DNA of 64,000 bases, from NCBI RefSeq assembly GCF_003574735.1, contig NZ_QORW01000007.1:124001-188000 (forward strand), given 5' to 3'. Shown in pieces: positions 9,494 through 30,826 of this stretch. The notes under the pieces were generated by a model. It ran no database searches, had not been told where the DNA came from, and saw only the letters and a list, made by a program, of their open reading frames with translations. The stretch comes from Dongia deserti. Lineage in GTDB: Bacteria > Pseudomonadota > Alphaproteobacteria > Dongiales > Dongiaceae. How positions within the stretch are numbered: position 1 is the stretch's first letter; each line of letters begins with the position of its first letter. The translations under genes were made by a program, and so were the position numbers.

Positions 9494-12028
9494 TCAGGCG
9501 ATGAAATTGACCAGCGACAATCGCGAGATCTGGGCGTAGGCGCCGAAGCTGGCCTGCAACTGCAGCTCCACCGCCGCCAGCTTCGCGGCGACCTCGTTGG
9601 GGTCGACCGCCTCGATCTTGTCGGTATCCGAGACGTTGGCGTTGATGGTGGTCTGGTGCGACAAGGTGGTCGCGGAGAACAGGGCGTCGTTCACCGTGTT
9701 GTCGCTTTGCAGTGCCCGCACACCCGCGAGCGATTCCGTGGCCAACTGCTTGGCGATGGTCATCTTCTCCGCGTAGGTGTCGGGATCCTGCACCGCCGAC
9801 TGGGCGTATCGCAGGGCAAGGGTCAGCTTCTGGAACGCGACCTCGTTGGCGCTGAAGGTGTATTTCACCGACATCTTGTCCGCGATCACGATCGAGGCGC
9901 GTTGCCACGCCAAGGCGGAGTCCGTCCGTTCCTGATGCACGTTGTACTGAGTGGGTGTCGGGTCCGGAACCGCGGCCGGCTGGTTGACCGTGGCTTGCGT
10001 CTTGAGTTCGATGCCGATGGTGGCGCCGGTCAGGATCAACTGGCCGCTGCCGGTCGGGCCCGGCACCGCCGAAGCAGGGAAGGGCGGCACCTGGGCATTG
10101 ATCATCGCCGTCAGGCTGATGGCGATGGCATCCATGTCGGCTTCGGTGCCGTTGGTCGTATAGCGGACGGTGCGGCCGTTGACCGTGACTTCGTAGACGT
10201 CACCCTTGCGGCCGACCGCCCCGCTCAGCTGCACGGTATCGATCTGGGGCAATGGCCCGGCCGGGATGTTGGCGACCACGGTGGCCGTGGTGGGCGCGGC
10301 CGTGGTGTTCGGCGGAGCATCGGTCGACACGGTCGCCGCGTAGGTCATGGCGGAGCCCGGCGTGCCCGACGTGATCGCCAACCGGCCGTTGCGTACGGAG
10401 GCCGTGACGCCGATCCCGGCGGCGTTGATGGCAGACACGAACTTGGCCGCGATCGACGCCTGATCATCGGTGGAAGACGTGGTGACTGTGAAGGGCCCGC
10501 CGGCCGGCGCCGTGAAAGTGATCGTATACTGATCACCGGCGTCGAACGGGCCGGGGAAGCCGATCTCGTCCTGCTGCGCGACCGGCACGACCGTGCGCTG
10601 GGTCGTCTCGACGATCGGATTGTTCTGCACCGTCGCATGCGCGGTGAAGGCGGTGGCGGCTCGCAGCTCCAGCTTGCCGTCACCGAGGTTGGTCGCCGCC
10701 ACCGCGAAGGGCGGCTGATGGTTGGCGATCTTGGCCACCAGTTTGTCGACGATGGTGTTGAGATCGGGTTCGTCGCCTGTGGTGCGATAGCTGATCGTCA
10801 CCGGCGAGGCATGGGCCGGCGGATCGGTGATGGTAACGCTGAAGATCTCGCCGATCGTGCCGACCGGTCCCCTCAGGCTGATGACATCGACCTGATCGGC
10901 GCTGATCGGCACGTTGGCCTGGACCGTCGTGATGGTGGATGGCGTCGGGTCGTTACCGGAGATATCGACGGTGAAGCCAGTTCCGGGAGTGTCCGCCGTG
11001 ATGGTGAAGCCGGTCGCGTCGACGTCCTGGACCGACACGTTGGCGAGCGGACCGACCGCTGCCGCCATGGCCGCCGCGAGCTCCTGCTGCGTCATGGGGC
11101 CATTGAAAATGAGCGGCGTGCCGTTGACCGTTACGGTCTCTGTCTGGCCCGTGCCGAGGTGATCGGTGGTGATGCGCACGACCTGCCGGATCGTGCCGCC
11201 GGCGAGCTGAAACGTCGTCTCGCTCGCGGCCGCGTTCTTGGAGCCACTCGGATCGGGCAGCCGCGACAGGTCGACGACAGGCGCCCGTTCGTTGGCGTTG
11301 ATGCCGCCGAACAGATAGCGGTCGTTCACCTGCTCGTTGAGCAGCGCGTTGAGCTCGGTCAGCGCGGTATTGACCTGCGCGACGATCGGGGAAATCTTGC
11401 CGGCGCGCGTGAGGGACGATTCGATCGTGTTCTGGGCGCCGGCGGGAACGTCCGTGTTCGTGACATTGACGTTGAACAGCGGTCCGGGCTGCGTACCGGT
11501 GATGATCAGGCGGTCGCCGATGACCTCGGCCGTCGCGCGCGCGCCGGAGGTGGAATTGTTGATCTGATTGGCTAGGTTTCCGGCGACCTCGCCGAAGCTG
11601 CCTTCGGTGCCGTTCGTGACGTAGGTGAAGAGGACGCCGTCGACGACGACCTTGTAGATGTCGCCGGAATCGCCGAGATCGCCCGAGAAGGTGACGGTGT
11701 GCTGCTGCTTGACCGGCGGGTCGCTGTTGGGTGAGGTGAAGGCCTGCAGCATCGTGGCATTGATGTCCTCGATGCTGGTGAGGACGCGATCGTAGGCCTT
11801 GACGTCGGTGTGGGCGCTCTTGATGGCTTCGATGTAGCCCTGGCGGCGTGCGATCTCCGCGCGCAGATCGACCAGACGTTGCGTCTGCACGCCATAGGTC
11901 GTGAGGTCGCTCGACTTCTTGCCCGTGTTGAGCTGCTGCGTGAGTTGGGCCAGCGACGTCTGCAGGCGATGGAAGCTATTGACGTTGGAGAGATACGAGG
12001 CGTAGGTCGAATATCCGCTGACTGGCAT
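9494..12028 (-). CDS. flgL: FlgL-type hook-filament junction protein, enlarged by five inserted repeat modules
   Basis: 844 residues, far longer than usual FlgL (about 300-400). The N-terminus (LTQQLNTGKKSSDLTTYGVQ) and C-terminus (ALRYAQSAVQDPDTYAEKMT) are flagellin-like coiled-coil D0/D1 regions that belong to FlgL. About 570 internal residues are occupied by five diverged modules, at about 108-195, 281-360, 373-465, 480-565 and 590-680. Each has the pattern D-x-(V/I)-x-L/F-x-G, a strand pair with T-V-x-(V/I)-x-G-x-x-x-x-Y, a helix ending in INA/INN-like residues, then L-x-(I/L)-T. FlgL joins FlgK to the filament. Third gene of the flgE operon. The same module occurs in FlgK and FlgE. Confidence 0.85.
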   Translation of the reverse strand: MPVSGYSTYASYLSNVNSFHRLQTSLAQLTQQLNTGKKSSDLTTYGVQTQRLVDLRAEIARRQGYIEAIKSAHTDVKAYDRVLTSIEDINATMLQAFTSPNSDPPVKQQHTVTFSGDLGDSGDIYKVVVDGVLFTYVTNGTEGSFGEVAGNLANQINNSTSGARATAEVIGDRLIITGTQPGPLFNVNVTNTDVPAGAQNTIESSLTRAGKISPIVAQVNTALTELNALLNEQVNDRYLFGGINANERAPVVDLSRLPDPSGSKNAAASETTFQLAGGTIRQVVRITTDHLGTGQTETVTVNGTPLIFNGPMTQQELAAAMAAAVGPLANVSVQDVDATGFTITADTPGTGFTVDISGNDPTPSTITTVQANVPISADQVDVISLRGPVGTIGEIFSVTITDPPAHASPVTISYRTTGDEPDLNTIVDKLVAKIANHQPPFAVAATNLGDGKLELRAATAFTAHATVQNNPIVETTQRTVVPVAQQDEIGFPGPFDAGDQYTITFTAPAGGPFTVTTSSTDDQASIAAKFVSAINAAGIGVTASVRNGRLAITSGTPGSAMTYAATVSTDAPPNTTAAPTTATVVANIPAGPLPQIDTVQLSGAVGRKGDVYEVTVNGRTVRYTTNGTEADMDAIAISLTAMINAQVPPFPASAVPGPTGSGQLILTGATIGIELKTQATVNQPAAVPDPTPTQYNVHQERTDSALAWQRASIVIADKMSVKYTFSANEVAFQKLTLALRYAQSAVQDPDTYAEKMTIAKQLATESLAGVRALQSDNTVNDALFSATTLSHQTTINANVSDTDKIEAVDPNEVAAKLAAVELQLQASFGAYAQISRLSLVNFIA

Positions 12029-12043
12029 GATGCTTCCTCGTCC

Positions 12044-13759
12044 TTACCGCGACACGGCCGCTTGTAAGGTGTCGAACAAAGTCTGGATCACCGTCATCAA
12101 ACGGGCGGAGGCCGCATAGGCGTTCTGCAGCAGCTGCAGGTTGGCCAGTTCCTCGTCCAGATTGACGCCGGTTTCCTCCTGATAGCGCTGCTCGGTCATT
12201 CGCAGCGTCTCGGCATTCAGCTTGGCATTGTCGCTCACGATCTTGGCGTTGCTGCTGGAGGCGCCGATGATGCCCGACATCAGCCCCTTGTAGGAGACGT
12301 TGGTCAGGCTGAGGCCAACCGCGATAAAGTTGCGGTCATTGCTGTTGAGCGCGGTCACGACATCAGCAGCGGAGTTCTTCTTGAGCTGCTGCCGACCGGC
12401 AAGCAGCTCGGTATTCACCGTGAAGGTATAGCGATCGGCGTTGACGAAGAAACCCTGGGTCAGCTCCGGCAGTTGGCCGTTGACGGACGTGACCACCGTG
12501 AACGGCGTGTTGTTGCTGGTGCCGATGAGCTGTAACGAGGCGACGCCGTTGATCGCGCTCACGCCCAGGGTCGAGTCTGAATTGATGATGGCGGCCAGCT
12601 TCTGCGCGATCTGGTCGAAACTCGTGTCGTTCTGGGTCGCGGTGTAGCTGAAAGTCTTCCCCTTGATGGTGATCTCGAATACGTCGCCTTCCACCAGGCT
12701 TCCGCTGAAGGTGACGGTGCCCATCTGCGGGGTCGTGGCGCCAGGCTGCACGGTCGTCAGGTGCGATGCGCTGACCCGCAGAGAGCCGACCCCGTTGTTG
12801 TAGGCCGCCGCGAAGGTAACCGGCGAGCCGGTGGTGGTCGTGAAGGCGCTGACCACCATGTCGAGCTGCGAGCGCAGCTTGCGGATCACCTCGGAAGCCG
12901 GATCGGCGCTGGCCGGCTGGCCGGCCGCGGTGCCGTCATAGCGCAGGTTCAGCAGCGCCTTGATCTTGCCTTCGCGCAGCAGGCCATTGACCGGCGCGCC
13001 GCTATCGACGGAGATGATGTTCGTGCCGTCAAAGTCGAAGCGCGCGGGCGCGCCGTCGAGCAATGACAAACCGGCGGGCGTGAATAGCGCGATCGCGCCG
13101 TTCTCCCGCTCGACCGAGCGCACGTCCACCAGGTTGGCGATCTCGCGCACGATCGCATCGCGCTGGTCGATGAGATCCAGCCGCTCCACGCCGTTGGGGT
13201 CCGATGCCTTGATGCGCAGATTGAGCTCAAATACCTTGGCGAGCTTGTCATTGAGCTCATCCGTTGCGGCATCGAGGTCCCTGCGGATGTCGGCGTCGAT
13301 CTGGTCGATGCCGGCACTGAGGCGACGCACCTCAGCCGCCAGCTGTTCGCCGAGGGCGATGACCTGCTGCTGGGCCGCCGCACTTTCCGGCTGCGACTGC
13401 AGGCTCTGCCAGGCGGCGGTGAACTGATTGAACAGTTGCGGCAGAGCGGCGGTGTCAGAGCTGGCGCCAAGCAGGTTCTGAATGCGGCCCAGATATTCCT
13501 GCTGGGTGCTGGTCAGGCCGCTGGCCGAGGTGAGGGTCTCGAACTGCCGGCGCAGCGATGCGTTGATCGCTGCCTGATAGCCTGCGATCGATACACCGCC
13601 CGCCTGATTGTTTCCCAGGAAAACGGTCTCGCGCGACAGGGTCTTCTTGGTATAGGACGGGTCGTTCGCATGCGCGACGTTGGAGGAGACCAACTGCACA
13701 TGCGCCTGATTGATGCGAAGCCCGGAGATCGCCGCATTGAGGGCTGCGTCCAAGGACAT
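12044..13759 (-). CDS. flgK: FlgK, hook-associated protein 1
   Basis: 571 residues. The N-terminus (AALNAAISGLRINQAHVQLV, SSNVAHANDPSYTKKTLSRE) is the FlgK rod/hook-type helix, and the C-terminal segment LDEELANLQLLQNAYAASAR is the matching D0 helix. At about 341-425 a single copy of the repeat module found in FlgL and FlgE is inserted (MGTVTFSGSLVEGDVFEITI...). FlgK forms the first junction zone on the finished hook. Start 26 bp after flgE; the flgL start follows its stop by 15 bp, so these are co-transcribed. Confidence 0.93.
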   Translation of the reverse strand: MSLDAALNAAISGLRINQAHVQLVSSNVAHANDPSYTKKTLSRETVFLGNNQAGGVSIAGYQAAINASLRRQFETLTSASGLTSTQQEYLGRIQNLLGASSDTAALPQLFNQFTAAWQSLQSQPESAAAQQQVIALGEQLAAEVRRLSAGIDQIDADIRRDLDAATDELNDKLAKVFELNLRIKASDPNGVERLDLIDQRDAIVREIANLVDVRSVERENGAIALFTPAGLSLLDGAPARFDFDGTNIISVDSGAPVNGLLREGKIKALLNLRYDGTAAGQPASADPASEVIRKLRSQLDMVVSAFTTTTGSPVTFAAAYNNGVGSLRVSASHLTTVQPGATTPQMGTVTFSGSLVEGDVFEITIKGKTFSYTATQNDTSFDQIAQKLAAIINSDSTLGVSAINGVASLQLIGTSNNTPFTVVTSVNGQLPELTQGFFVNADRYTFTVNTELLAGRQQLKKNSAADVVTALNSNDRNFIAVGLSLTNVSYKGLMSGIIGASSSNAKIVSDNAKLNAETLRMTEQRYQEETGVNLDEELANLQLLQNAYAASARLMTVIQTLFDTLQAAVSR

Positions 13760-13785
13760 GACGTCACCTGTTCCGGTTCATCCGG

Positions 13786-16053
13786 TTATCGTTTGATGTT
13801 GATGATGTCGGCCAGCATTTCATCCGCTGTCGTGATCACACGGGTATTGGCCGAGAAGGCGCGCTGCGTGACAATCATCTTGGAGAACTCCTCCGCGATA
13901 TCGACGTTGGAGCCTTCCAGCGCGCTGCCGCGCATGGTGCCGGCGCCGTTGTCGCCGGCATTGCCGATACGCACCGCGCCGCTGTCGAACGTCTCCGTGA
14001 AGCCTTGCGCCACTTCGCGCTGCAGGGCGCTGGGATCATTGAACTGGGCGATCGGCACGCGGAAATAGATGCGGCTGCGACCATTGTCGTACTGCAATTC
14101 GACGTCGCCATTGTCGCGGATGCGCACGTCGCTCAACAGGCCTTGCGGCACGCCATCCTGGATCAAGCGCGACACATCGATATCGCTGCCTGCGAACTGG
14201 GTCAGGCCAGCCGTGGTCTGGAACTGGCCGAGATTGAGCTCGATCGTCTGCAAGCCCAGTCCGTAGTCCACCTGGAAGGAGATGATGGCATCCTGGCCGC
14301 CGGTCTGCAGGACGGGCACGGACGCATTGCCGGACGGATTGAACTGGTTTGAAAGGCCGACAATAGTGCCTGCTGTCGCCGGCGTCTGGCCGAACTGGAC
14401 ATCAATGAAGCCCGGGACTGTCCCGTTCGTGGCGGTGGCGGCGGAGGTGAAGGGAACGCCCGCATTGGTCGCTGTCAGGGAGATGATGCCGCCGGCAGCG
14501 GCCGCCGTGATACCGAGCCCCGGATTGGCGTTGATCTGTGCGGCGAAGCGATTCGCGAGGTCGCTGAGGCTGAGCTCAGTGCCGTCAGCGACGTAAGAGA
14601 TAGACTGCGTGCCGATGGTGAGCGTGTAGGTGTCGCCAATTTCGCCCGGGCCCACCGTGCCGCCGAGGGTGAGGGTGTCGGTCTGGGCGACGGGCGCAAC
14701 GTTCGCCGTGGTGGTGGCCGGGTTGGTCGGCGCGTCGCTGCTGGCGGATGTCGGCGCCGACGTGCCGCCGAAGGAAATGGTGAAGGTGCCAAGCGCGGCG
14801 TCCGATTGAATGAGTAGCTGATCGGCGCTGTCGGGGTCTGCGACCGCCGTCACCAGCGGAGCGAGCGTACCGTTGGCATTGATCGCCGTCACCAACGCAT
14901 CGCGGACCGCCGTCGCGCTCGCGAGCGGGCCGGTGACCGTGACGGTCGTGCCGTTGATCGTGATTGACGCCGTATCGGCGACCGTGGGAAGGGCGACGAC
15001 CTGGACGCCTTCGAGCTGTCCGGAGCCATTGCCGCCGATGTTCGTCGTGAAGGGCGTACCCGCGACGTCCGCCACAATCTGGAAGGTGTTGCCGACCACA
15101 TTGGTGCCGGTGACGACGGCGCTCATGCCGGCATTGCCGTTGATGGCAGCGACCAGGGCTGAAGCGGCCTGCGTGGCGGTATATCCGGTGGAAGGCGCGG
15201 TAACGGAGACGGTGTTGGAGCCGATCGTCATGGTGATGGTGCGACCCGGCGCCATACCGGCGGCGGGCAGTGTGACGGTGTCGACCTGGGCGACCGGCGC
15301 GACGTTTGGCTGCAGCGTGGTAGTCGTCGCGGTCTGATCATTCACGCCGCTTATGGTGCCGGCAACAGGATCGAGCGTGCTGTCGTTCGCCTGGATGTCC
15401 AACATCCACAGATTGTCGGCGCGCTTGGTCCAGACCAGCGAGACATTGTGCGGGTTGCCGAGCGCGTCGAACACCTGAACGCTGGTCGGACTGAGCGGCG
15501 TCGAGGGATTGACGGGAGAGTTCGCCGGCAGGTTCCCGACGAACTCGATCTCGCTGGTCGGCGTCGGCTGGTCGATCACTTGCGAGATCTGGATCGGCGC
15601 GACGACGGACGTGTTGACCACGCCGGTCTCCGGATCCACGTTCCAGCCATTCAGGTAATAGCCACCATTGTTGACCAGATAGCCGTCGCGGTTGACCTGG
15701 AAGTCGCCGGCGCGGGTGTAATAGCGCAGCGCCTCGAAGGTCGTCTGGGTCGCCGACTGGTTGGTGGCGCGGCTGACCACGAAGAAGCCGCTGCCGGTGA
15801 TAGCGAGGTTGGTGTTGTTCTGGGTCTGGGTGATGTTGCCCTGGACGGCATTGGCATAGTAGGGCGAGGCGATAACGCCACCGGGCGAATGCAGGTTCTG
15901 GTTCGACACGGTGATCAGCGTTTCGAACCGCGTCTCGACCTTCTTGTAGCCGGTGGTCTGCGAGTTCGCGATGTTGTCGGAGATGTGTCCGAGCGATCGC
16001 GACTGGGCGTTGACGCCGCTGACCGCCGTAAACATCGCGCCAAGAATGCTCAT
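13786..16053 (-). CDS. flgE: FlgE, flagellar hook protein, enlarged by three repeat modules
   Basis: 755 residues, larger than typical hook proteins (about 400). The N-terminus (MFTAVSGVNAQSRSLGHISD, NIANSQTTGYKKVETRFETL) and C-terminus (ALEGSNVDIAEEFSKMIVTQ, RAFSANTRVITTADEMLADI) are hook-protein hallmarks. The outer region carries three tandem modules at about residues 250-335, 353-430 and 453-540, joined by the repeated linker N-V-A-P-V-A-Q-x-D-T. FlgE polymerises into the universal joint of the flagellum. First gene of flgE-flgK-flgL-fliK-flgD, behind a sigma-54 promoter at 16098-16114. Confidence 0.95.
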   Translation of the reverse strand: MSILGAMFTAVSGVNAQSRSLGHISDNIANSQTTGYKKVETRFETLITVSNQNLHSPGGVIASPYYANAVQGNITQTQNNTNLAITGSGFFVVSRATNQSATQTTFEALRYYTRAGDFQVNRDGYLVNNGGYYLNGWNVDPETGVVNTSVVAPIQISQVIDQPTPTSEIEFVGNLPANSPVNPSTPLSPTSVQVFDALGNPHNVSLVWTKRADNLWMLDIQANDSTLDPVAGTISGVNDQTATTTTLQPNVAPVAQVDTVTLPAAGMAPGRTITMTIGSNTVSVTAPSTGYTATQAASALVAAINGNAGMSAVVTGTNVVGNTFQIVADVAGTPFTTNIGGNGSGQLEGVQVVALPTVADTASITINGTTVTVTGPLASATAVRDALVTAINANGTLAPLVTAVADPDSADQLLIQSDAALGTFTISFGGTSAPTSASSDAPTNPATTTANVAPVAQTDTLTLGGTVGPGEIGDTYTLTIGTQSISYVADGTELSLSDLANRFAAQINANPGLGITAAAAGGIISLTATNAGVPFTSAATATNGTVPGFIDVQFGQTPATAGTIVGLSNQFNPSGNASVPVLQTGGQDAIISFQVDYGLGLQTIELNLGQFQTTAGLTQFAGSDIDVSRLIQDGVPQGLLSDVRIRDNGDVELQYDNGRSRIYFRVPIAQFNDPSALQREVAQGFTETFDSGAVRIGNAGDNGAGTMRGSALEGSNVDIAEEFSKMIVTQRAFSANTRVITTADEMLADIINIKR

Positions 16054-16510: not shown

Positions 16511-17788
16511 ATGGTCACAGTTGAAACCATCAAGGACAAGATCCAGCGGATGGGTGGCGACTACAAACCCGGGAACGTCAGCCGCCCTGGCCATCTCTAC
16601 AATCCCCTGCCGTTTCCGGAATTTGCCGACGTTCCGTACCAGCGCGCAGCCTGCGAGGAGCGCTTCGACTTGATATCGAAGCTCCTGCCTCGGCCGTTCA
16701 AAGGCGGAACGCTGCTCGATATCGGTTGTCACACTGGCTATAACTGCTTCCGCTTTCGCGAGAAGAACTTCCAATGCACTGGCATCGAGGCCGACCCGCT
16801 GACCGCGGAGATCGCAGCCGATGTCGACCAGCTCAAGAAGACGCAGGTCAGGTTCATCAATAGCCGCGCTGACGCCAATATGATCCGCTCCCTGGGTCAT
16901 TTTGATGTCGTACTCTTCCTATCCACCTTCCAGTGGGTCGTCCATTTCGACGGTTTCGACGCCGCGGTCGCGCTGCTAGCCGAGGTGCAGCGCAATTGCG
17001 ACTGCTTGTTCTTTGAAACCTCCATGGGGCAGGAGGGCAAGATGAAGTTGCCCCAGCTTCCTGATGCGCGGGCGATTCACGATCTTCTCCGCAGCAGCGG
17101 CGCCCACGGAAACGTCGACTGCCTCGGAGCGATGCAAGCGCCCGGTGGGCCCAGCCATCAACAGCGTCTGATCTTCCGCTCGCACAATCGGCGCGAAGGC
17201 ACGGCTCGCGATCTTACCGCGCTCTCACCGCGTGACATTGCGCAGGTCGGAGCGCTCACCACGAGCGAGAACCCGCTGTATCACAAGCGGAACGATCACT
17301 TCGAGTCTGCCGTCTTCCGCGCCAAGACGTCCGACGGAAGATCACTGGCAATCAAGCTCGTTCGCCCAATGTCGGATCTGGCGAAGGGCCTGTTGCCCCG
17401 AGAGCATGAGTTCCTGAACAAGCTGTCTGGCGAAATCGCCCCGCAACTGATCGGGTTCGGTTTTCACAAGGATCGGTACTTCCTGATCTCCGAATGGATT
17501 GAAGGCGAGATGCTATCGGCCCCGCGCCAGGCAGAGGATCTCGACTCCGACACCATCCGGCAGGAGCTCTTTCGACTTGAGGAGGCCCTGCGCAGCCACA
17601 ATATCCGACATCGGGATATCAGGCCGCAGAACCTCATCCACCGAGATGGGCGGCTCTATCTTCTTGATTTTGGTTGGAGTTGCTGGGCGGATGAAGTCGG
17701 CTGCCCGCTTCCTGATCAGATTGCAGATGTTGAAGATGGTATCGCCTTGCGGCGGCTGGCAATCGGGCCAGCGGCGAGTAGTTCCTAG
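16511..17788 (+). CDS. SAM methyltransferase-protein-kinase-like fusion protein
   Basis: 425 residues with two recognisable halves. Residues about 40-230 form a class I SAM-dependent methyltransferase: motif I LLDIGCHTGYNCF at about 68-80, acidic Glu at the end of the second strand (GIEADP), and FDVVLFLSTFQW. Residues about 255-425 form a small kinase-like domain: a Lys in SLAIKLVRP, the catalytic loop HRDIRPQNLI (His367, Asp369, Asn374) and the metal-binding DFG (Asp386). The chain ends about 40 residues after DFG, so the C-lobe is very short. This pairing recalls the O-antigen chain terminator WbdD. The acceptor is unknown; neighbouring glycosyltransferases and flagellins suggest a surface or flagellar glycan. 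Ends overlap 4 bp with the convergent glycosyltransferase. A GAGGCGAGGG ribosome-binding site precedes the ATG. Confidence 0.8.
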   Translation: MVTVETIKDKIQRMGGDYKPGNVSRPGHLYNPLPFPEFADVPYQRAACEERFDLISKLLPRPFKGGTLLDIGCHTGYNCFRFREKNFQCTGIEADPLTAEIAADVDQLKKTQVRFINSRADANMIRSLGHFDVVLFLSTFQWVVHFDGFDAAVALLAEVQRNCDCLFFETSMGQEGKMKLPQLPDARAIHDLLRSSGAHGNVDCLGAMQAPGGPSHQQRLIFRSHNRREGTARDLTALSPRDIAQVGALTTSENPLYHKRNDHFESAVFRAKTSDGRSLAIKLVRPMSDLAKGLLPREHEFLNKLSGEIAPQLIGFGFHKDRYFLISEWIEGEMLSAPRQAEDLDSDTIRQELFRLEEALRSHNIRHRDIRPQNLIHRDGRLYLLDFGWSCWADEVGCPLPDQIADVEDGIALRRLAIGPAASSS

Positions 17789-21534: not shown

Positions 21535-23748
21535 TTAGAACAACCGCAGGATGGCCTGCTGCGCCTGGTTGGCCAGAGACAGCGAGATGGTGCCCAACTG
21601 CTGACGCGTTTGCAGCGTCAGGATGTTCGCACCCTCTTCGTTCTGGTCGGCCAGCGTCAGCTTGCCAGCGCCTTCCTTCAGCACGTCCGAGAATGCCGCC
21701 GTGAAATCGAGGCGGGTGAGGAGCGTGTTGGAGTTGGTGCTGAGCGACGAAGACGCGGACCGTAGTTTCAGCTTCGCCGCATCCAGCTGACGGATCGCAT
21801 TGTCGATATCCGAGCGATCGTTCCAGTTGTTCTGGGCGAAGTCGAGCTGCAGGCCCTGGCCGTCCGTCTGGACGTTCTGGCTCACCACCGTGACCGTGCT
21901 GGTGTTGGTCTCGTTCAACTGCACAGTCAGGTTGTTGGCGTCGGAGCCGTCAACCAGCTGCTCAGTCTTCAAAGTGGCGCTCTCGCCAGCGTTGGTGCCA
22001 CGCACGTCGAACGAAGCGCTCCGCTCGCCCGTGAACTCGCCACGGACCTTGTAGCTGAGCGTGCCGTCCAGCGCGCCAGACGCCGCCGAGGCGGCCGTGG
22101 TGAGCTGGAACGTCGCGCCGTCGTTCACGCCACCTGAGATGGTGAAGGTGACCGTGGTCGCCGAGGCGTCGCCGATATTAACGTTGGTCGCCGTGGCGGT
22201 ACCGCCGACACCATCGGACAGCGAGATCGTCGCGGCGCCGGCCGAGCCCGAGAACGTGAAGCTGAGGTTCGACACGGTGTTTTTGGCAAAGCCAGCTGCC
22301 GCGCTGACACCGAAGTTGGCTGCGGTCAGACCGGTAGCCACTTCCGTGTTTCCGATCTCGGTCCCGCCCGCCGCCGCCGCCGTTGCCAGCAGCTTCAGCT
22401 CGGTGGTGTTCACGCCAATCGTATAAGTCGCGGCGCTGTTCGTTCCGGCACCCGTAAGGGCAAAGCTGCCAGCGCCCGCCGAGACCGCAACCGAGGCACC
22501 GCCGGCGGTCACACCGAAGTTTGCGAAGTTGTTGGTCGTGTAGTTGAACGAAGTGCCGGTGACCGAGAAGCTGAGCGTCTCGTCGACCGTGCCGCCGCTT
22601 GACAGAGTCACGGAGGTGAAGGCGGGGGCACCTGTGCCATAGGCAGAGCTGACCGCACTCGAATACTTCGAGGCGCCCAGGATCTGCCGCTCATCGAGCG
22701 TGATACGAGCCGTGCCGGAGTCGAACGCAAACGCGTTCTCGCCGTTCGAGACCTTGCCGGAGCCGAGCGCAGCCAGGCCGTCGCGCGTGACGGTCTCGCC
22801 GTTCTCGTTCTCGGCAATCACCTGCAGGTTGACGTTCTTCTCGATCACCGAGGTGCCGACGCCGGCGGTATCGGCGACGTCCTCGATGGCATCGAAGTCT
22901 ACGTCAAAGCTGATGCGCGTTCCGCTGTTGAAGCTGGCGGAGAAGCGCAGCACGTTACCTGCCGCCTTTGCCGCGTTGAACTCGGCATTGGTGAAGGTCT
23001 GAGTGAAGGTCTGCGTGCCTTCGGTGACCGTGAAGGTCTTGTCCTTACCCTTACCGCCCGACAGCTTGATCGAGATGCTGTTGAGGTTGAAGTTGGACGT
23101 CGAAGCAAAGCCGGTAACCTCCACGTTGCTGATACCGCGGTCGCGCTCGGCGTTCGCGATATCGTTGGAGTTGCCGGTGATCGCGCCGTCACCCGTGACC
23201 GAGATGTCGTAGGTGTCGGCATCGACGACGTTGGTCGCACGTGCACCGCTGATGCCGGTGAGGGCATTGACAGCGCTCTTGCTGCTCGCGGTCGCGTCGA
23301 TGCGGAGGCCCGATCCGACCAGGAGGTTCTTACCCTGGTAGCCAGCGTCCTGCGCCAGCTTGTCGATCTGCCGCAGCACGTTGTTGTACTGGCCAGCCAG
23401 ACTGTTGCGCAGCTTGACCGAATTGGCATCGTTGCCCAACGAACCCAGAGCCTGGGTCGTCAGACCGCGCGCCTGTTCGACGAGGCTTTCGATTGCGGTG
23501 ATGCCAGAGTCGCCCGCCTTGATGGTCGAAATCGCCTGACCGATCCCGTCCTTCAGGCCGTCAAGGTCGCCAGCGCGCTGGGTCAGACCCTTGGCAGCGA
23601 AGAAGGCCGCCGGGCCATCGAGGGCGGTGTTGATCTTGTTGCCGGTCGCGAGGCGAAGCTGAGTTTTTTCCAAGAGCGACGACGTCTGCTGCAACAGAAG
23701 CAAGTTGCTGCGGATGCCGCTGGTCAAGGGGATGGAGTTGTTAGCCAT
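21535..23748 (-). CDS. fliC: Flagellin 1 (737-residue, enlarged)
   Basis: The N-terminal D0/D1 region (IRSNLLLLQQTSSLLEKTQL, RLATGNKINTALDGPAAFFA) and the C-terminal region (LTLADQNEEGANILTLQTRQ, QLGTISLSLANQAQQAILRL) are typical flagellin. The middle, about residues 160-580, is a long beta-rich, Ala/Gly/Ser/Thr-rich outer domain, about 450 residues more than a minimal flagellin. Last residues LANQAQQAILRLF are identical to those of flagellin 2. It heads the flagellin-flbT-flaF-unknown unit behind a sigma-54 promoter (23831-23847). No signal peptide: exported by the flagellar apparatus. The many Ser/Thr offer sites for O-glycosylation (inference). Confidence 0.96.
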   Translation of the reverse strand: MANNSIPLTSGIRSNLLLLQQTSSLLEKTQLRLATGNKINTALDGPAAFFAAKGLTQRAGDLDGLKDGIGQAISTIKAGDSGITAIESLVEQARGLTTQALGSLGNDANSVKLRNSLAGQYNNVLRQIDKLAQDAGYQGKNLLVGSGLRIDATASSKSAVNALTGISGARATNVVDADTYDISVTGDGAITGNSNDIANAERDRGISNVEVTGFASTSNFNLNSISIKLSGGKGKDKTFTVTEGTQTFTQTFTNAEFNAAKAAGNVLRFSASFNSGTRISFDVDFDAIEDVADTAGVGTSVIEKNVNLQVIAENENGETVTRDGLAALGSGKVSNGENAFAFDSGTARITLDERQILGASKYSSAVSSAYGTGAPAFTSVTLSSGGTVDETLSFSVTGTSFNYTTNNFANFGVTAGGASVAVSAGAGSFALTGAGTNSAATYTIGVNTTELKLLATAAAAGGTEIGNTEVATGLTAANFGVSAAAGFAKNTVSNLSFTFSGSAGAATISLSDGVGGTATATNVNIGDASATTVTFTISGGVNDGATFQLTTAASAASGALDGTLSYKVRGEFTGERSASFDVRGTNAGESATLKTEQLVDGSDANNLTVQLNETNTSTVTVVSQNVQTDGQGLQLDFAQNNWNDRSDIDNAIRQLDAAKLKLRSASSSLSTNSNTLLTRLDFTAAFSDVLKEGAGKLTLADQNEEGANILTLQTRQQLGTISLSLANQAQQAILRLF

Positions 23749-24096: not shown

Positions 24097-27000
24097 ATGG
24101 CGACCGGCGCACTCTCGACCCCACTGCGTCGCACGCCGGCACAGGGTGCCACGAACCCCGTGGATCAACCGCGCGTGATATCAGCGGAGGATGCAGCCAG
24201 GATCAGCGCGCTCCTGCAAACCGCAAGTCGCGCCCATCATGCACGTAACGTCGACCGCCTGAAGGCGATACTCGAGGAAATACTCGAGATCGACCCCAAC
24301 CACGCGCAAGCAACCTACAATTTGGGAATTCTGCACCGGGACCGGGACGAGATCTTTCAGGCCGAGGTCTACCTTCGCCGCGCGATCAGACTGGACCCAA
24401 AGTTGATCGATGCCTATCAGGCCCTGGCGGATCTCCTGTTCAGCGTCAAGCATTCGCTCCCGGCCGCCCAGCTCTATGAGGAGGCGCTCGAACGGGCGCC
24501 CAACCGGCTGCCGCTTCTGCAGAACCTCGCAAAGACGCGCATGATCCTCAAGGACGCGCCGGAAGCCGAGCGTTGGGCACGGCGCATTCTGTCGATCGAC
24601 GACAAATCCGAAGAAGCCTGGGAGATACTCGCCTGGGCGCTGCTGTTCCGGGGAAGCGACCCGCTCGACGCGCTTCATGCGGCAGAGCAGGCCGTTCGCT
24701 TCGCGTCGGGCTTGCCACGTGCCGCTGCCGCGAAGGAGCAGGCATTGCGCAGATGCGGCCGCGTAGCGGAGGCAGATCAAGCCTGGTCTGCGATGTTGGC
24801 CGATGCCGCGGGGAGCTGGGATACAGCACGCGCTCTAATGGAAGGATATTATTGGCTCGATCAGCTCGATCGTTCTCGCGCGGTCTCGACGGCGTTCGTC
24901 GAGGCGAATCCTGACGGTGCCGAGGGGCTGAAGGATCTGGCGTCATTGATGATGGCGGATGGAGATTTCGAGCCGGCGCAGGAGCTGCTGGTCCGCGCAT
25001 CGAAGCTGGCGCCGGACGACCGTGGTATCCGCATGGTGCGGGGCCTGAACGCGTTTCGGCTTGAGGACTACGAGGAGGGGCTCGAGCTCTATGATGCGCG
25101 CTGGTATCGCAGCGTTCACGACAGGCCATGGGATATTCCTGTCCCCGAATGGGATGGGCGCCCGATGGAAGGGCGCCTGATCGTCTATTGCGAGCAGGGC
25201 ATCGGCGACTACGCGATGTTCGCCCTGATGTTCTCGGAGCTGCGGAAACACGCAAGCTCGGTCACGATCGAGGTCAATGCCCGCATGGCCAGCCTGTTCC
25301 GGCGCAGCTTCCCCGACATGCCGGTGATCGATCGCAGCGCGCTGCCGGCGAACTGGGACCCGGCCCAGTACCAAGCCAAGGTCGCGATGGGCGATTTGTT
25401 CCGGCAGCTGGGCGCCGATATGGAAAACCTGCCCAATCGACGCGGTTTTCTCATTCCAGAACCGGCGCTGGCGCAGAAATTGCGGCATAGCTACCAAGCG
25501 ATGTTTCCCGGCAAGCGGCTGATCGGGATTTCGTGGCGCAGCGGCAATCGTGACAGCGCGACCGTACGCTCAATCGACCTCAATCTGTGGCGGCCGATCC
25601 TGGAAACGCCAGATTGCGCCTTCATCTCGCTGCAGTACGGCAACGTCGGCCGGGACCTCGAAGCTCTCAGGGCAGAGACCGGCCACGAGGTCTATTGGGA
25701 TCGGGAAGTCGACCCGATGCAGTTCCTGGATCCATTCACCGCGCAGATCGCGGCGATGGACCTGGTGATATCGGTCGACAACAGCACCGTCCATTTCGCT
25801 GGCGCCATTGGCAAGCCGTGCTGGGTGTTGCTGCCGCTCAACTCCGACTGGCGTTGGCTGGTCGGTCGTACCAAATCTCTCTGGTACGAAAGCCTGGATC
25901 TCATCCGGCAACAGCGTTCTGAAGGTTGGGAGCAGGTGATTGCCACTGTTGCTGAGCGCCTGCGTGCCATCGGCACCGACCCGCTGGTCGACGCCCAGGC
26001 CGAACTGTGCCTGCGATGTGGCGAGGAATTGTTGCGTCGCGAAGCGATGGAGCCGGCAGAAGAGTACTTCCGCTGGCTGCTGGAAACCGGCCGTCACAAG
26101 GCGGCAGCCTTTCATGGCATAGGCAAGGCTGCGCAAAGCGCACGACATTACCAGGATGCCGCGGCGATCCTTGGTCGCGCGGCAGAGCTGGCGCCGGAGC
26201 ACATCGACTACAAGGCAGACTGGGCACTTGCCTTGTTTCAGGCGGGGTATCGCGATTCCGGTGAGCGCTTGGCGCGCGAGTTGACGCGCCAGAGCAATGA
26301 TCCGACGGCGCTGACCGCGATGGGAGAGATTCTTGCTGCCAAGGGCCTGCCGGATCAGGCAACTGACTACTTCGCACGCATCCTGCGCTCGGATCCTACC
26401 CACACGGTGGCGCGGGCGATTCTCGCTGGACTACAGCGGGCGCAGGGTGAGGATGATCTGGCGCACGCTAATTTCGCACGCCTGGTGCAACAAGCCCCCG
26501 ACCTGCCGGGCCCGCGCACCGCACTTTCGGAACTCGACCTGCGGTGCGGCCGCGATGAGGCGGCTTGGTCGAACTTCGCTTGGCGCTTCGGCGCCGCGCC
26601 CGAAGAGCTGCCGCGCCATTTGGCTATGATCGCTCCGCACGACCGGCCAAAATCGTTACTTGCCGGCAAGATCCGGCGCCGACGCCTGTTTCTGCGCGCC
26701 GAGCGTAATGCGATGGAGCAATTGCTGTTTGCACCCTGGCTCTCGGACGCGCTCGAGGATTCGCGCAGTGTGCGAGCGGAGTGCGACACTGCCGTCCTGC
26801 CGCTATTGGGTGCGGCCTTCCCAGACATCCGCTTCGCGGGCGCAGGGACTCTGACTCCTGCCACCCTGATCGAGGATCGGACCCAGGTCTCCGCCAGCCT
26901 CGCGGATCTTGTCGCTTCCTATCCCAAGAGTTTGGCCGGTGGCTGGTTGGCGCTCGATGGGGGCAAAGGGCGCTCCACTTTGCTGGCAGGCGGGACCGAG

Positions 27001-27447
27001 AACCGGACTGTCGCCCTGGCATGGCAACCGACGGACTCCCTCGTGAGCGACCTTGAAGCTTTTGCACCGCTCTTTGATGTCCCCGGTGTATCGTGGTTGG
27101 CACTGCCGGTGGGCGCCATCAGGCCGCCGCTCGCTCAGTTCTTGTCGACGCCTGGTTGCCCTCTGAGTTTTGAATCGACCTGGGTTCAGAACGGGCTAGA
27201 ATCGATTGCAGAATTGATTGCCGCTGTTGATCTCGTTGTTTCAAACGAAGACGTGGCGGCAACTTTGGCAGGCGCCCTTGGCAAGCCGGTATGGAAGATC
27301 GCCGGCCCCGATGCCCATTGGTCCTGGAGTGCCGAGAGCACGACCAGCAAGTGGCATCCGACCGCGCGCGTCCTACGCGCAACACAAGGGGCCGAGCAGG
27401 TGATCGCTAGCCTGCGCACCGACCTTGAGCAATTCACCGGCGAATGA
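24097..27447 (+). CDS. Large TPR-glycosyltransferase protein, FlmG-like, with duplicated transferase domain
   Basis: 1116 residues. About 25-300: tandem TPR helices (HAQATYNLGILHRDRDEIFQ, AEVYLRRAIRLDPKLIDAYQ). About 355-650: a GT-B domain related to family 9/41 (GRLIVYCEQGIGDYAMFALM; LIGISWRSGN; DLVISVDNSTVHFAGAIGKP). About 650-850: more TPRs. About 858-1110: a second, diverged copy of the transferase domain (RRLFLRAERNAMEQ; DLVVSNEDVAATLAGALGKP) in which the donor-site residues S-T-H are lost. Caulobacter FlmG uses an N-terminal TPR region to hold flagellin and a C-terminal transferase to glycosylate it. Here the gene lies between two flagellin genes, so flagellin glycosylation is a reasonable inference. 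Preceded by GTGAGATG; the next TPR gene starts 19 bp after its stop. Confidence 0.82.
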   Translation: MATGALSTPLRRTPAQGATNPVDQPRVISAEDAARISALLQTASRAHHARNVDRLKAILEEILEIDPNHAQATYNLGILHRDRDEIFQAEVYLRRAIRLDPKLIDAYQALADLLFSVKHSLPAAQLYEEALERAPNRLPLLQNLAKTRMILKDAPEAERWARRILSIDDKSEEAWEILAWALLFRGSDPLDALHAAEQAVRFASGLPRAAAAKEQALRRCGRVAEADQAWSAMLADAAGSWDTARALMEGYYWLDQLDRSRAVSTAFVEANPDGAEGLKDLASLMMADGDFEPAQELLVRASKLAPDDRGIRMVRGLNAFRLEDYEEGLELYDARWYRSVHDRPWDIPVPEWDGRPMEGRLIVYCEQGIGDYAMFALMFSELRKHASSVTIEVNARMASLFRRSFPDMPVIDRSALPANWDPAQYQAKVAMGDLFRQLGADMENLPNRRGFLIPEPALAQKLRHSYQAMFPGKRLIGISWRSGNRDSATVRSIDLNLWRPILETPDCAFISLQYGNVGRDLEALRAETGHEVYWDREVDPMQFLDPFTAQIAAMDLVISVDNSTVHFAGAIGKPCWVLLPLNSDWRWLVGRTKSLWYESLDLIRQQRSEGWEQVIATVAERLRAIGTDPLVDAQAELCLRCGEELLRREAMEPAEEYFRWLLETGRHKAAAFHGIGKAAQSARHYQDAAAILGRAAELAPEHIDYKADWALALFQAGYRDSGERLARELTRQSNDPTALTAMGEILAAKGLPDQATDYFARILRSDPTHTVARAILAGLQRAQGEDDLAHANFARLVQQAPDLPGPRTALSELDLRCGRDEAAWSNFAWRFGAAPEELPRHLAMIAPHDRPKSLLAGKIRRRRLFLRAERNAMEQLLFAPWLSDALEDSRSVRAECDTAVLPLLGAAFPDIRFAGAGTLTPATLIEDRTQVSASLADLVASYPKSLAGGWLALDGGKGRSTLLAGGTENRTVALAWQPTDSLVSDLEAFAPLFDVPGVSWLALPVGAIRPPLAQFLSTPGCPLSFESTWVQNGLESIAELIAAVDLVVSNEDVAATLAGALGKPVWKIAGPDAHWSWSAESTTSKWHPTARVLRATQGAEQVIASLRTDLEQFTGE

Positions 27448-27466
27448 CCGGGGCAGGAGACTTCGA

Positions 27467-28513
27467 ATGAACCGTAAGCAGCGCCGCGCAGCCGAGAAGA
27501 TGGCCAAGACAAAGCCCAAGAGCGGCACCCCCTTTTCAGCTGCAGACAACGTCGTCAGCAAGGCGATCGCCGCTGCGCAGGCCGGCGCATTGGCCGAGGC
27601 TGAGGTAGCCGTCAATGAAGTATTGACGCGCTTTCCCGATCACACCGAGGCGCTGCACCAGAAAGGCATGCTGCTGGCGCGTACGAACCGCATTGAAGAG
27701 GGCATCCTGCTGCTGCAGCGTGCGACTGCCCAGAAGCCGCGCGAAGCGCTCTATTGGAACAACCTGGCAGCGGCGTACCTGATGATCGAACGATCACAAG
27801 AGGCGCTCGAGGCCGCGCGCAAGGCCGTCGAACTCGATCCCAAGTATGCGATGGGCTGGCAAAATCTCGCGATGGCCGCGACCGACCTCAGTCAGCACCC
27901 GCTAGCGGCCGAGGCGCTGGAGAGGGCATCGGTGCTGATGCCAAACAACGCTGACATCTGTACCCAGCTGGGCATTGCACACCTGGAACTGGGTGACGGC
28001 GCCCGCGCCGAAACGGCATTCACCAAAGCGATCACGCTCACTCCCGGGAACGCCGAGTGTCTCAGCAATCTGGGTGGCCTGCTGGTCAAGCAGGGAAGGA
28101 CCAGCGAGGCGCTGCCGCACCTGACCAAGGCTGTCGAGATCGATCCCGATCGCTTCACCGCCGCGTTGCATTACGGTGTGGCTCTGTCACTCGCCGGAGA
28201 TCTGGCGAAAGGACTGCGCTGGCTGCGCCGTGCCACCTCGATCCAGCCGCGCTCGGATTCGGCGTGGGGTGCCTTGGCGGATGCCGCGATCATGGCTGGC
28301 GAAAAGGTCGAGGCACTCGACGCTGCGCGGCGCGCCGCGGAGTTCGCTCCGGCTGAGCCCGGCCACCAGGCGCGTTTGAAGAAGCTGGAGCAGTCCGAGA
28401 CTGGCGCTGGATTGGTCGAACTGGATTTCGGCGGCCTACTGCATGCACCTGAAGCCAAGCCGGCCGAGCATGCGGACGTGTCGCACTCCCTGGACAAGAT
28501 CTTCATCGGCTGA
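27467..28513 (+). CDS. TPR-repeat protein (possible flagellin modification partner)
   Basis: 348 residues from the ATG at 27467, preceded by GGCAGGAGA; an upstream in-frame TTG (27425) is rejected because it overlaps the previous gene without a ribosome-binding site. After a basic N-terminus (NRKQRRAAEKMAK) it is almost wholly TPR helices (about 40-310): HTEALHQKGMLLARTNRIEE, AMGWQNLAMAATDLSQHPLA, NAECLSNLGGLLVKQGRTSE. No catalytic domain or signal peptide. It follows the FlmG-like gene and precedes flagellin 2 (convergent). A scaffold binding flagellin or the transferase is plausible but unproven. Confidence 0.78.
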   Translation: MNRKQRRAAEKMAKTKPKSGTPFSAADNVVSKAIAAAQAGALAEAEVAVNEVLTRFPDHTEALHQKGMLLARTNRIEEGILLLQRATAQKPREALYWNNLAAAYLMIERSQEALEAARKAVELDPKYAMGWQNLAMAATDLSQHPLAAEALERASVLMPNNADICTQLGIAHLELGDGARAETAFTKAITLTPGNAECLSNLGGLLVKQGRTSEALPHLTKAVEIDPDRFTAALHYGVALSLAGDLAKGLRWLRRATSIQPRSDSAWGALADAAIMAGEKVEALDAARRAAEFAPAEPGHQARLKKLEQSETGAGLVELDFGGLLHAPEAKPAEHADVSHSLDKIFIG

Positions 28514-28582: not shown

Positions 28583-30826
28583 CTAGAACAACCGCAGGAT
28601 CGCCTGCTGCGCTTGGTTGGCTAGGCTAAGGCTGATCGTGCCCAATTGCTGGCGCGTCTGCAGTTGCAGCAGGTTGGCGCCTTCCTCGTTCTGGTCGGCC
28701 TGCACCAGCTTATTGGCGCCTTCCGCCAGGACGTTGATGAACTCGTTCGTATAGTTCAATCGTGTCGTAATGATATCGAGATTGTTGCTCAGCGACGAGG
28801 CCGCCGCGCGCAGGCGGAGCTTGGCCGCCTCGACCGACTTCGCCGCGAAGTCGATATCGGCTCGGTCACGCCACTGGTTCTGCGCGAAGTCGACTGCCAG
28901 GCCCTGACCGTCGGTCTGCACGTTCTGGCTCACGACCGTCACCTGGCTAGTGTTGGTCTCGTTCAGCTGAACGGTCAGGTTGTTGCTGTCGTTGCCGTCG
29001 GTGACCTGGACCGTGTTGAGGGTTGAGGTCTGGCCGGTATTGGCGGCGCGGACGTCGAACAAGGCCTGATCGGGCGCCGTAAAGTCGCCGATCGCGTTGT
29101 ATTTGAGCGTGCTCTCGGCGTTGGCGACCAAGTTGCCGCTGGTCAGGGTCAGCTGCAGCGTGGCGCCGTTGTTGACGCCGCCCTTGACCGTGAAGTTCAG
29201 CACCTGGCTGCCGAGTGTGCCGGTCACCGTCGCAGTGCCGCCATAGCCGTCACTCAACGTGAAGGTCGATGCCGATCCGGTGGTGGAGACATTGAAGGTC
29301 AGCGTGTGAGCGAGGTTGTGGGCGAGACCCGAAAGACCTGTCAATGCCACACCGCTGCCTGGTAGAGCTGCTCCGAGCGCCTGCTCCGTCGCATTGGCTT
29401 CGGAGACAGTCGAGGCCGCCGCCCGGACAATGCCCTGGAAGCCCGCCGTCTGCAGATTGAGGGTCACGTTCTGACCGGCGTCCGCGGCCGCCGAGAAGGT
29501 GTAGCTGCCGCTCGCGCTCACTGTCGTGGTAACGCCGCCGTTCGGGCCGGCCAACGTCGCCGTGTAGCTCGCGAAGGTGCCGGTGACGAAGTTGAAATCA
29601 GCCGCAGTCGCGGACGCGGTCAGCGAGTAGGTGAAGTCGTTGGCGATGCCGGTCGAGGTCAGGCCGGTGGGAATGGTCGGTGTGCCGACGATCGCGCTGG
29701 CGGCCCGTCCATACGAGGTGCCGACGGTTGCGGTGTAGGCGGAGGCCTGCAGGATGGTGCGCTCGTCGATCGTCATGCGCGGCGTGCCGGAATCAAACGC
29801 CCAGGCGTTCTCGCCGTTCGCCAGCTTCTGCTGGCCCGACTGGTTCAGCGCACTGCGCTCGATCCGCTGGCCGACGCCGTTCAGGTTAGTCGTGGCGACC
29901 GAGATGTTGACGTTCTTCTCGATCACGGACGTGCCGACGCCGGCAGTATCCGGAACGTCGTCGATCGTGTCGAAGTCGATGTTGAAGTTGATGTGCGTTC
30001 CGCTGGCGAACTGGTGATCGAAGTTGAGCAGGCGACCGGTGGCCTTTGCATCCGCCCATTGCTTGAGCGTGAAGGTCTTGGTGACGGACACGCCGCCTTC
30101 GGTGACGGTGAAGACCTTGTCCTTGCCCTTGCCGCCCGAATACTTGATGACGACCGGGTCGAAATTGCCCAGGGTCTTGCTGGCAAAGCCGCCGATGGTC
30201 AGGTTCTGGATGCCGCGATCGCGCTCGGCATTGGCGATGTCGCTGGCATCGGCGCTGATGGCGCCGTCGCCGGTGATGTCGACGACGTAGTTGTCCGCAG
30301 ACACCACATTGGTGACGCGCGTGTTGCTGACGCCGGTGATGGCGTTGGTCGCGCTCTTTGAAGACGAGGTCGCGTCGAGCCTGAGGCCGCTGCCGAGTAG
30401 GAGGTTCTTGCCCTGATAGGCCGCGTCGCCCGCCAGCTTATCGATCTGCCGCAGCAGGTTGTTGAACTGCTCCGACAGCGACTTGCGCAGACTGACCGAG
30501 GCCTGATCCTTGCCGAGGCTGCCGTAGGCCGAGGTGATAAGGCCCTGTGCCTGGTCGAGCATCTGTTCGATCGCCGTCACGCCCGTGTCCGCGGCTTTGA
30601 TCGTGCTGATGCTCTGGCCGATCGAGTCCTTGAGCTGCGAAAGATCGTCCGCGCGGCGGTTGAGGCCCTTGGCGGCAAAGAAGGCAACGGCGCCATCGAT
30701 GGCGGAGTTGATCTTGTTGCCGGTCGCGAGCCGCTGCTGCGTGCGGTCGATCTTCTCGGATGTGACCTGCAGCAACAGCAGGTTGTTGCGGATGCCCGCA
30801 GTCAATTGAATGTCGTTTGTCGGCAT
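28583..30826 (-). CDS. fliC: Flagellin 2 (747-residue, enlarged)
   Basis: Paralogue of flagellin 1. The conserved ends are nearly the same (LRLATGNKINS..-type region RLATGNKINSAIDGAVAFFA; C-terminal QLGTISLSLANQAQQAILRL), while the middle 160-590 differs more. Shared outer stretches such as VQLNETNTS, VVSQNVQTDGQGL and GVGTSVIEKNVN remain recognisable. A sigma-54 promoter of near-consensus sequence lies about 85 bp upstream (30911-30927). It points towards the FlmG-like and TPR genes, which lie between the two flagellins. Separate promoters would allow different amounts of the two subunits along the filament. Confidence 0.96.
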   Translation of the reverse strand: MPTNDIQLTAGIRNNLLLLQVTSEKIDRTQQRLATGNKINSAIDGAVAFFAAKGLNRRADDLSQLKDSIGQSISTIKAADTGVTAIEQMLDQAQGLITSAYGSLGKDQASVSLRKSLSEQFNNLLRQIDKLAGDAAYQGKNLLLGSGLRLDATSSSKSATNAITGVSNTRVTNVVSADNYVVDITGDGAISADASDIANAERDRGIQNLTIGGFASKTLGNFDPVVIKYSGGKGKDKVFTVTEGGVSVTKTFTLKQWADAKATGRLLNFDHQFASGTHINFNIDFDTIDDVPDTAGVGTSVIEKNVNISVATTNLNGVGQRIERSALNQSGQQKLANGENAWAFDSGTPRMTIDERTILQASAYTATVGTSYGRAASAIVGTPTIPTGLTSTGIANDFTYSLTASATAADFNFVTGTFASYTATLAGPNGGVTTTVSASGSYTFSAAADAGQNVTLNLQTAGFQGIVRAAASTVSEANATEQALGAALPGSGVALTGLSGLAHNLAHTLTFNVSTTGSASTFTLSDGYGGTATVTGTLGSQVLNFTVKGGVNNGATLQLTLTSGNLVANAESTLKYNAIGDFTAPDQALFDVRAANTGQTSTLNTVQVTDGNDSNNLTVQLNETNTSQVTVVSQNVQTDGQGLAVDFAQNQWRDRADIDFAAKSVEAAKLRLRAAASSLSNNLDIITTRLNYTNEFINVLAEGANKLVQADQNEEGANLLQLQTRQQLGTISLSLANQAQQAILRLF

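Follow-up and report, generated by a model that had tools for sequence, protein, structure and literature searches.

A repeated beta-alpha module shared by FlgE, FlgK and FlgL of Dongia deserti is a candidate outer cladding of the flagellar hook and hook-filament junction

The outer layer of the bacterial flagellar hook is formed by domain D2 of the hook protein FlgE, and a working hook can tolerate a 386-residue D3-D4 insert within D2 (PMC5069557). At the hook-filament junction, which in Salmonella comprises 11 FlgK and 11 FlgL subunits, the D2 domains of both proteins are exposed on the exterior (PMC12221982); the two domains are alike, and it has been proposed that they strengthen the junction through quasi-homotypic contacts (PMC6155364). 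Flagellin outer domains can assemble into a sheath with an influence on motility (PMC8931119), and the core-plus-outer layout of phage sheath proteins has been noted, without more, to 'somewhat resemble' flagellin (PMC9230969). Flagellar outer domains are generally viewed as rapidly evolving extras of each protein with no relation to one another, whereas the locus described here points to one stable family cladding both hook and junction. In the literature searched, which excludes most subscription journals, we found no report of a module shared by FlgE, FlgK and FlgL or of a link between flagellin and sheath domains; one conserved module family in three axial proteins is newly described here and extends the known outer-domain decoration of flagellar tubes.

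The window analysed is a 64,000-nucleotide stretch (G000:C49:124001-188000) of the 6.1-Mb genome of Dongia deserti, whose FlgE has its nearest relatives in Rhodospirillaceae MAGs and Dongia mobilis; Dongia-type bacteria live in soil and water. Its flgL, flgK and flgE genes (Table 1) have Pfam and NCBIfam matches to the core parts of the proteins, the helical N and C ends of FlgL matching FlgL/flagellin families, and the module regions of all three are without any Pfam family above its cut-off. The two giant flagellins of the window belong to the same thick flagellum as these modular proteins. Between the two flagellin genes, on the opposite strand, lie two TPR proteins (24097-27447 and 27425-28513), which may take part in flagellin modification, and a protein with a methyltransferase and a kinase-like domain (16511-17788, + strand) adjoins flgE.

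Table 1. Host genes, module copies and giant flagellin genes in the window (position 1 is the first letter of the window)
Feature	Position	Strand	Basis or remark
flgL, HAP3 hook-filament junction protein, 844 aa, 5 modules	9494..12028	-	Pfam and NCBIfam
module L5, FlgL residues 593-692	9953..10252	-	best-scoring copy of the genome, E 2e-30
module L4, FlgL residues 483-592	10253..10582	-	HMM and FlgL model
module L3, FlgL residues 375-482	10583..10906	-	HMM and FlgL model
module L2, FlgL residues 268-374	10907..11227	-	highest divergence among the copies; clusters with E1/E2 of FlgE
module L1, FlgL residues 106-197	11438..11713	-	own site between two N-terminal D1 helices
flgK, HAP1 hook-filament junction protein, 571 aa, 1 module	12044..13759	-	Pfam and NCBIfam
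module K1, FlgK residues 343-432	12464..12733	-	D2 position; site empty in Ferrovibrio FlgK
flgE, hook protein, 755 aa, 3 modules at D2/D3 position	13786..16053	-	Pfam and NCBIfam
module E3, FlgE residues 453-549	14407..14697	-	AlphaFold pLDDT 92; strongest phage sheath domain II match
module E2, FlgE residues 357-454	14692..14985	-	HMM; weakest among the FlgE copies
module E1, FlgE residues 252-356	14986..15300	-	HMM
giant flagellin, 737 aa, without FlgE/FlgK/FlgL-type module	21535..23748	-	whole-genome profile search
giant flagellin, 747 aa, without FlgE/FlgK/FlgL-type module	28583..30826	-	whole-genome profile search

The initial annotation had proposed a module of roughly 85 residues with five copies in FlgL, one in FlgK and three in FlgE. 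All nine copies are real and lie in the genes it named, although the unit, with linkers, measures about 90-110 residues (the profile has 101 positions). Nine HMMs, each trained on eight of the copies from nine genomes, all recovered the copy left out together with its full set of orthologs (9/9 per copy, 81/81 held-out sequences). For the copies of the window the leave-one-out E-values range from 2.6e-21 (E3) to 6.1e-7 (L2) and 1.4e-6 (E2, the weakest), whereas the lowest E-value among 18,000 shuffled decoys was 7.9e-4. Searching the whole genome with the alignment profile gave exactly nine matches at E ≤0.01, all of them in flgL, flgK and flgE. Plain BLASTP also ties FlgL to FlgK and FlgE across relatives, with E about 1e-5 to 1e-10, and the copy-versus-copy profile-profile probabilities are mostly 90-99%, the weak links always including L2, E1 or E2. 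As a control, 11 ordered slices of the FlgE, FlgK and FlgL cores gave profile probabilities of ≤1.1%; these slices, and the distance of the shuffled decoys from the real copies, rule out low-complexity or chance similarity. HMMs, BLASTP and profile comparison agree that the module is common to the three axial proteins, and the nine copies are a single module family with common ancestry.

An alignment of 57 rows places a conserved I-N at the centre of the module (consensus LxAxINA), and the composition is Thr/Ser-rich and negatively charged. The linker N-V-A-P-V-A-Q-x-D-T, first read as recurring, is found in full just twice, both times in FlgE, whereas FlgL carries VVPVAQQDE and PAGPLPQIDT. 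The first strand of E2 is probably shared with the end of E1. Pairwise identity between copies is 16-37% and the nucleotide comparison left no long DNA repeats between them, so the duplications are old and recent duplication is ruled out.

The structure prediction likewise returned one fold for the modelled copies, L1-L5 and E3, as the first reading of the locus had anticipated. In AlphaFold models from nine FlgL orthologs all five FlgL modules run strand-strand-strand-helix-strand-strand-strand, with pLDDT mostly 70-89 across the block, and module E3 modelled alone from 57 aligned copies (pLDDT 92) has the same strand-helix order. We therefore take beta3-alpha-beta3 to be the predicted fold of all nine copies, K1, E1 and E2 being assigned to it through sequence profiles only. 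The D0/D1 part of the FlgL model is poor (pLDDT mostly <50), and the outward projection of the modules would for this reason rest on the homology of the insertion sites.

Ferrovibrio has empty sites at all insertion points, with FlgE of 449-462 aa, FlgK of 475-493 aa and FlgL of 346 aa. The modules thus lie between conserved core halves and are absent in some relatives, as is characteristic of variable outer (D2/D3) domains. The empty sites and the D2/D3-type positions support the surface-type insertion that had been proposed. The mid-protein location holds for L2-L5, which stand in tandem over residues 268-692 of FlgL, but L1 (106-197) stands apart between the N-terminal helices.

The module is present in 10 of the 17 genomes of the order, with exactly nine matches in nine of those; in the tenth, G012, there are eleven, among them a fragmented FlgE copy and a weak match to a frame of 506 residues. 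Each of the nine fully read genomes has all nine orthologous copies. In the tree across these genomes eight of the nine positions form one clade each (the exception is E2), and the nine position labels require eight changes, the minimum. As the positions keep to their own clades, copy number and order are older than the split of these genera; gene conversion between copies was looked for and none was seen, the positions being unmixed across the nine genomes. The dN/dS values are 0.04-0.41 for the modules and 0.09-0.31 for the cores, with E3, K1 and L5 conserved about as strongly as core, and by this measure the modules are under purifying selection. One relative (L008:9001-11307) has an extra partial module copy after E2 in FlgE, a sign of continuing duplication.

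The modular proteins go together with giant flagellins. In the module-bearing genomes of this family the flagellin frames measure 741-803 aa and those of the modular FlgE 757-814 aa. In three of these genomes (G004, G006 and G008) a modular FlgE (757-814 aa) and 750-798-aa flagellin frames occur beside a second system, in which a module-less FlgE of 429-454 aa accompanies a flagellin of 276-290 aa. FliD (PF07195) is absent from every genome with only the modular system, counting the Dongia genome itself and the order, and where present in two-system genomes it adjoins the module-less system; the modules therefore seem, from gene content, to be part of a flagellum that has giant flagellins and apparently no recognisable FliD cap. 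The paired contrast agrees with an outer layer whose size follows that of a thick filament. However, because every modular system in the family has giant flagellins, the size association may reflect a single evolutionary origin rather than many independent ones. With a decorated and an undecorated flagellum in the same genome, these three organisms make the role of hook outer domains directly testable.

These observations lead us to a model in which the module is an exported outer domain, inserted where FlgE, FlgK and FlgL normally carry variable outer domains and, additionally, in a D1 loop of FlgL. The D0/D1 cores would build the ordinary tube from which the modules project outward, and there they would meet the equivalent modules of neighbouring subunits in quasi-homotypic contacts. 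With Salmonella-like stoichiometry the FlgL ring would present 55 modules and the FlgK ring 11. The resulting layer would reinforce hook and junction and step the diameter up to that of the thick filament of 740-800-residue flagellins. By analogy with the described outer domains, we hold with moderate confidence that the modules are an outer cladding whose inter-subunit contacts reinforce hook and junction and match them to the thick filament; among the jobs first suggested for the module, a sheath, stiffening or adhesion, the co-occurrence of modular FlgE with giant flagellins favours such a structural layer. Two findings speak against it: FlgK has one copy only, so that the layer would be thinnest there, and the giant flagellins of Dongia are without the module of the FlgE/FlgK/FlgL type.

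Alternatively, the modules might just fill the radius needed to match a thick filament, with no specific contacts between them. That modular hooks in the family always come with 740-800-residue flagellins, and module-less hooks of the same cells with 276-290-residue ones, would be expected of such spacers, as would copies so unlike each other. Pure filler, however, is expected to vary in copy number, and the position-wise conservation across genomes, with dN/dS well below 1 and near core level in E3, K1 and L5, makes this unlikely in our judgement.

The module is not Dongia-specific, and its matches indicate that axial proteins other than FlgE, FlgK and FlgL use it as well. At E 1e-4 module matches occur in 23 of 385 alphaproteobacterial genomes. 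Among the hosts are FlgE proteins containing between one and about six copies (L058/L113, L059/L109, L061/L105, L063/L107 and L065), FlgL proteins (L076 and L077), and flagellins (L066, L067, L069 and L071, together with 620-670-aa flagellins of family f51). A 1021-aa flagellin-like protein in G137 has five copies, and a FliD (L072) gives a weak match. The module also occurs in phage tail sheath proteins, three of them assigned by Pfam (L068, L070 and L075) and two alike in length and match position (L073 and L074). By family, FlgE, FlgL and flagellins are hosts in f51, FlgE in f16 and f165, and flagellins in f23 and f122; a phylum-wide sample added further f23 genomes with 1-2 copies in proteins of ~490-560 residues that start like flagellins. 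Two related proteins of 378-395 residues without an NCBIfam match (L062:790-1974 and L064:847-1980) contain one module each.

We also noticed by eye, in the N-terminal loop of f51 FlgL proteins (L109:9301-11349 and L105:2777-4867; residues about 105-215), a segment DGxGG...GGxxDGAxxxL, which is likewise seen by eye in the Dongia giant flagellins (21535-23748). On its sequence pattern it is a candidate second shared outer segment.

Two modules also occur in an Ala-rich, repeat-containing, non-flagellar-looking protein of 1776 residues (L106:2571-7901, G356), which would suit a different function, namely that the modules are binding surfaces for glycans, surfaces or phages, as has been suggested for the extra domains of phage sheaths. 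An adhesion role has been proposed for those domains (PMC9230969), and the Thr/Ser-rich, negatively charged composition would also be compatible with binding. Hook and junction, however, are short and poorer adhesion sites than the filament, the Dongia flagellins are without the module, and no known binding motif was found in the modules; we regard a binding function as very unlikely. The recurrence of the module in flagellins of other bacteria and, distantly, in phage sheaths suggests a component that can be reused to clad helical tubes. For its origin we envisage an outer module circulating among alphaproteobacterial axial proteins, which would have been inserted and duplicated in an ancestor of Dongia.

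How the module came to be in three proteins of one flagellum is addressed by the relationships between copies. In the tree FlgL L2 groups with FlgE E1 and E2 (support 98/97), and in profile comparison L2 scores 98% with E1/E2 and just 1-22% with L3 and L5 of its own protein. This affinity favours an exchange between flgE and flgL, and spread of the module by recombination between the two, as had been suggested at the outset, is the reading that these sequence relationships favour. The support is partial, however, since the AU test rejects neither a single FlgL clade (p = 0.10) nor a single FlgE clade (p = 0.14). The first module might instead have entered FlgE, FlgK and FlgL in separate events and multiplied within each gene with no exchange, a history compatible with any function; the AU result allows it and the clustering of L3 with L5 (94/78) suits it. 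Because it leaves both the tree position of L2 and the L2 profile matches unaccounted for, we consider separate acquisition somewhat unlikely.

The initial annotation had described the module as resembling the flagellin IN motif yet larger, and this is borne out. Against a Flagellin_IN profile made from sequences found by the Pfam model PF07196, the module reaches a profile-profile probability of 90.5% (column-shuffle null ≤0.6%) with a length of ~90 against ~55 residues. The module was also compared with domain II of phage tail sheaths, using a profile of 32 sheath sequences from 33 sheath loci found independently of the module profile. Here hhalign gave 95.5% with a score of 51.7, the maximum of 200 column shuffles being 2.7% with a score of 19.0, and Flagellin_IN compared directly with sheath domain II gave 1.5%. 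Of the individual module copies, 16/57 match PHROG 165 (tail sheath; best E 1.1e-7) and 2/57 isolated modules match PF07196 (best E 3.4e-6). PF07196 has no match in full-length FlgL, FlgK and FlgE at E up to 1 and none genome-wide at E 0.001; the PF17481 model has none in the modules at E up to 0.01.

The module could of course be a plain Flagellin_IN motif and nothing more. Its central conserved I-N, the profile probability and PF07196 matches just given, and fold matches to FliD D2-D3 would agree with that, but the three proteins lack a PF07196 match, the module is longer and has extra N-terminal strands, and sheath domain II is closer to it than IN is, IN and sheath hardly matching each other. 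Such an identity is thus quite unlikely.

Fold searches point to phage tails and to flagellar outer domains, as the profiles do. When one module is searched against the PDB, the top matches comprise a protein of a cyanophage portal-tail complex, tail proteins of Milano, Mu, A-1(L) and phiTE, the Stenotrophomonas flagellum, P. aeruginosa FliC D2/D3 and Serratia FliD D2-D3, with E of just 0.01-0.3 and TM-scores on the query of 0.39-0.68. The whole FlgL model matches H. pylori FliD at 1.2e-5. BFVD yielded five phage proteins at E <0.001, other matches including tail sheath and tail tubular B proteins, and the PDB chain 9zdk_S ('gp76') matches the module profile at E 1.1e-6. Viral contigs searched with a single FlgE module gave no confirmed relative, so the phage link is supported by profile and fold similarity and not by close homologs. 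Taken together, a remote homology between the module and phage sheath domain II is likely, as judged from profile similarity and predicted folds, and the circulating outer module would then be part of a wider superfamily that includes this domain. That a single homologous 'tube-cladding' superfamily moved between flagella (hook, junction, filament and cap) and phage tails (contractile sheath domain II and short-tail nozzle proteins), giving them outer surfaces partly of common origin, is a tentative proposal to which we give somewhat less than even chances. The link in sequence and fold suggests a common stock of surface domains for the helical tubes of phages and flagella.

Finally, for comparison with known systems, the module shares with Flagellin_IN (PF07196) a strand-helix-strand core, the central I-N with V-T-A and L-x-L-T strands after it, and its occurrence in axial flagellar proteins, and differs from it in the extra N-terminal strands of its ~90 residues (~55 in Flagellin_IN) and in being missed by the Pfam model in FlgL, FlgK and FlgE. 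Phage tail sheath domain II (PF17481/PHROG 165), a beta-sandwich, is likewise an extra domain outside a helical tube, but the contractile sheath protein to which it belongs has a conserved core of its own, and this core (Phage_sheath_1) is absent from the FlgE, FlgK and FlgL hosts in Pfam and NCBIfam searches. The outer domains of the Stenotrophomonas flagellum (9atl), P. aeruginosa FliC D2/D3 (8erm) and Serratia FliD D2-D3 (5xlk) have a similar fold (TM-score 0.39-0.59) and a similar position outside the D0/D1 core; they decorate filament or cap, whereas the Dongia modules, as many as five to a protein, are found in the hook and in the two junction proteins. From its published description, Campylobacter FlgE D3/D4 likewise forms a large insertion midway through D2 of a hook protein (PMC5069557), and Dongia differs in having a repeated module common to FlgK and FlgL. 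A further parallel is the D2 domain of Xanthomonas FlgL and Burkholderia FlgK, a precedent for an outer domain that the two junction proteins share and for which quasi-homotypic contacts have been proposed (PMC6155364); in contrast to the Dongia module it is described as an eight-stranded beta-sandwich, is present in a single copy and is not found in FlgE.
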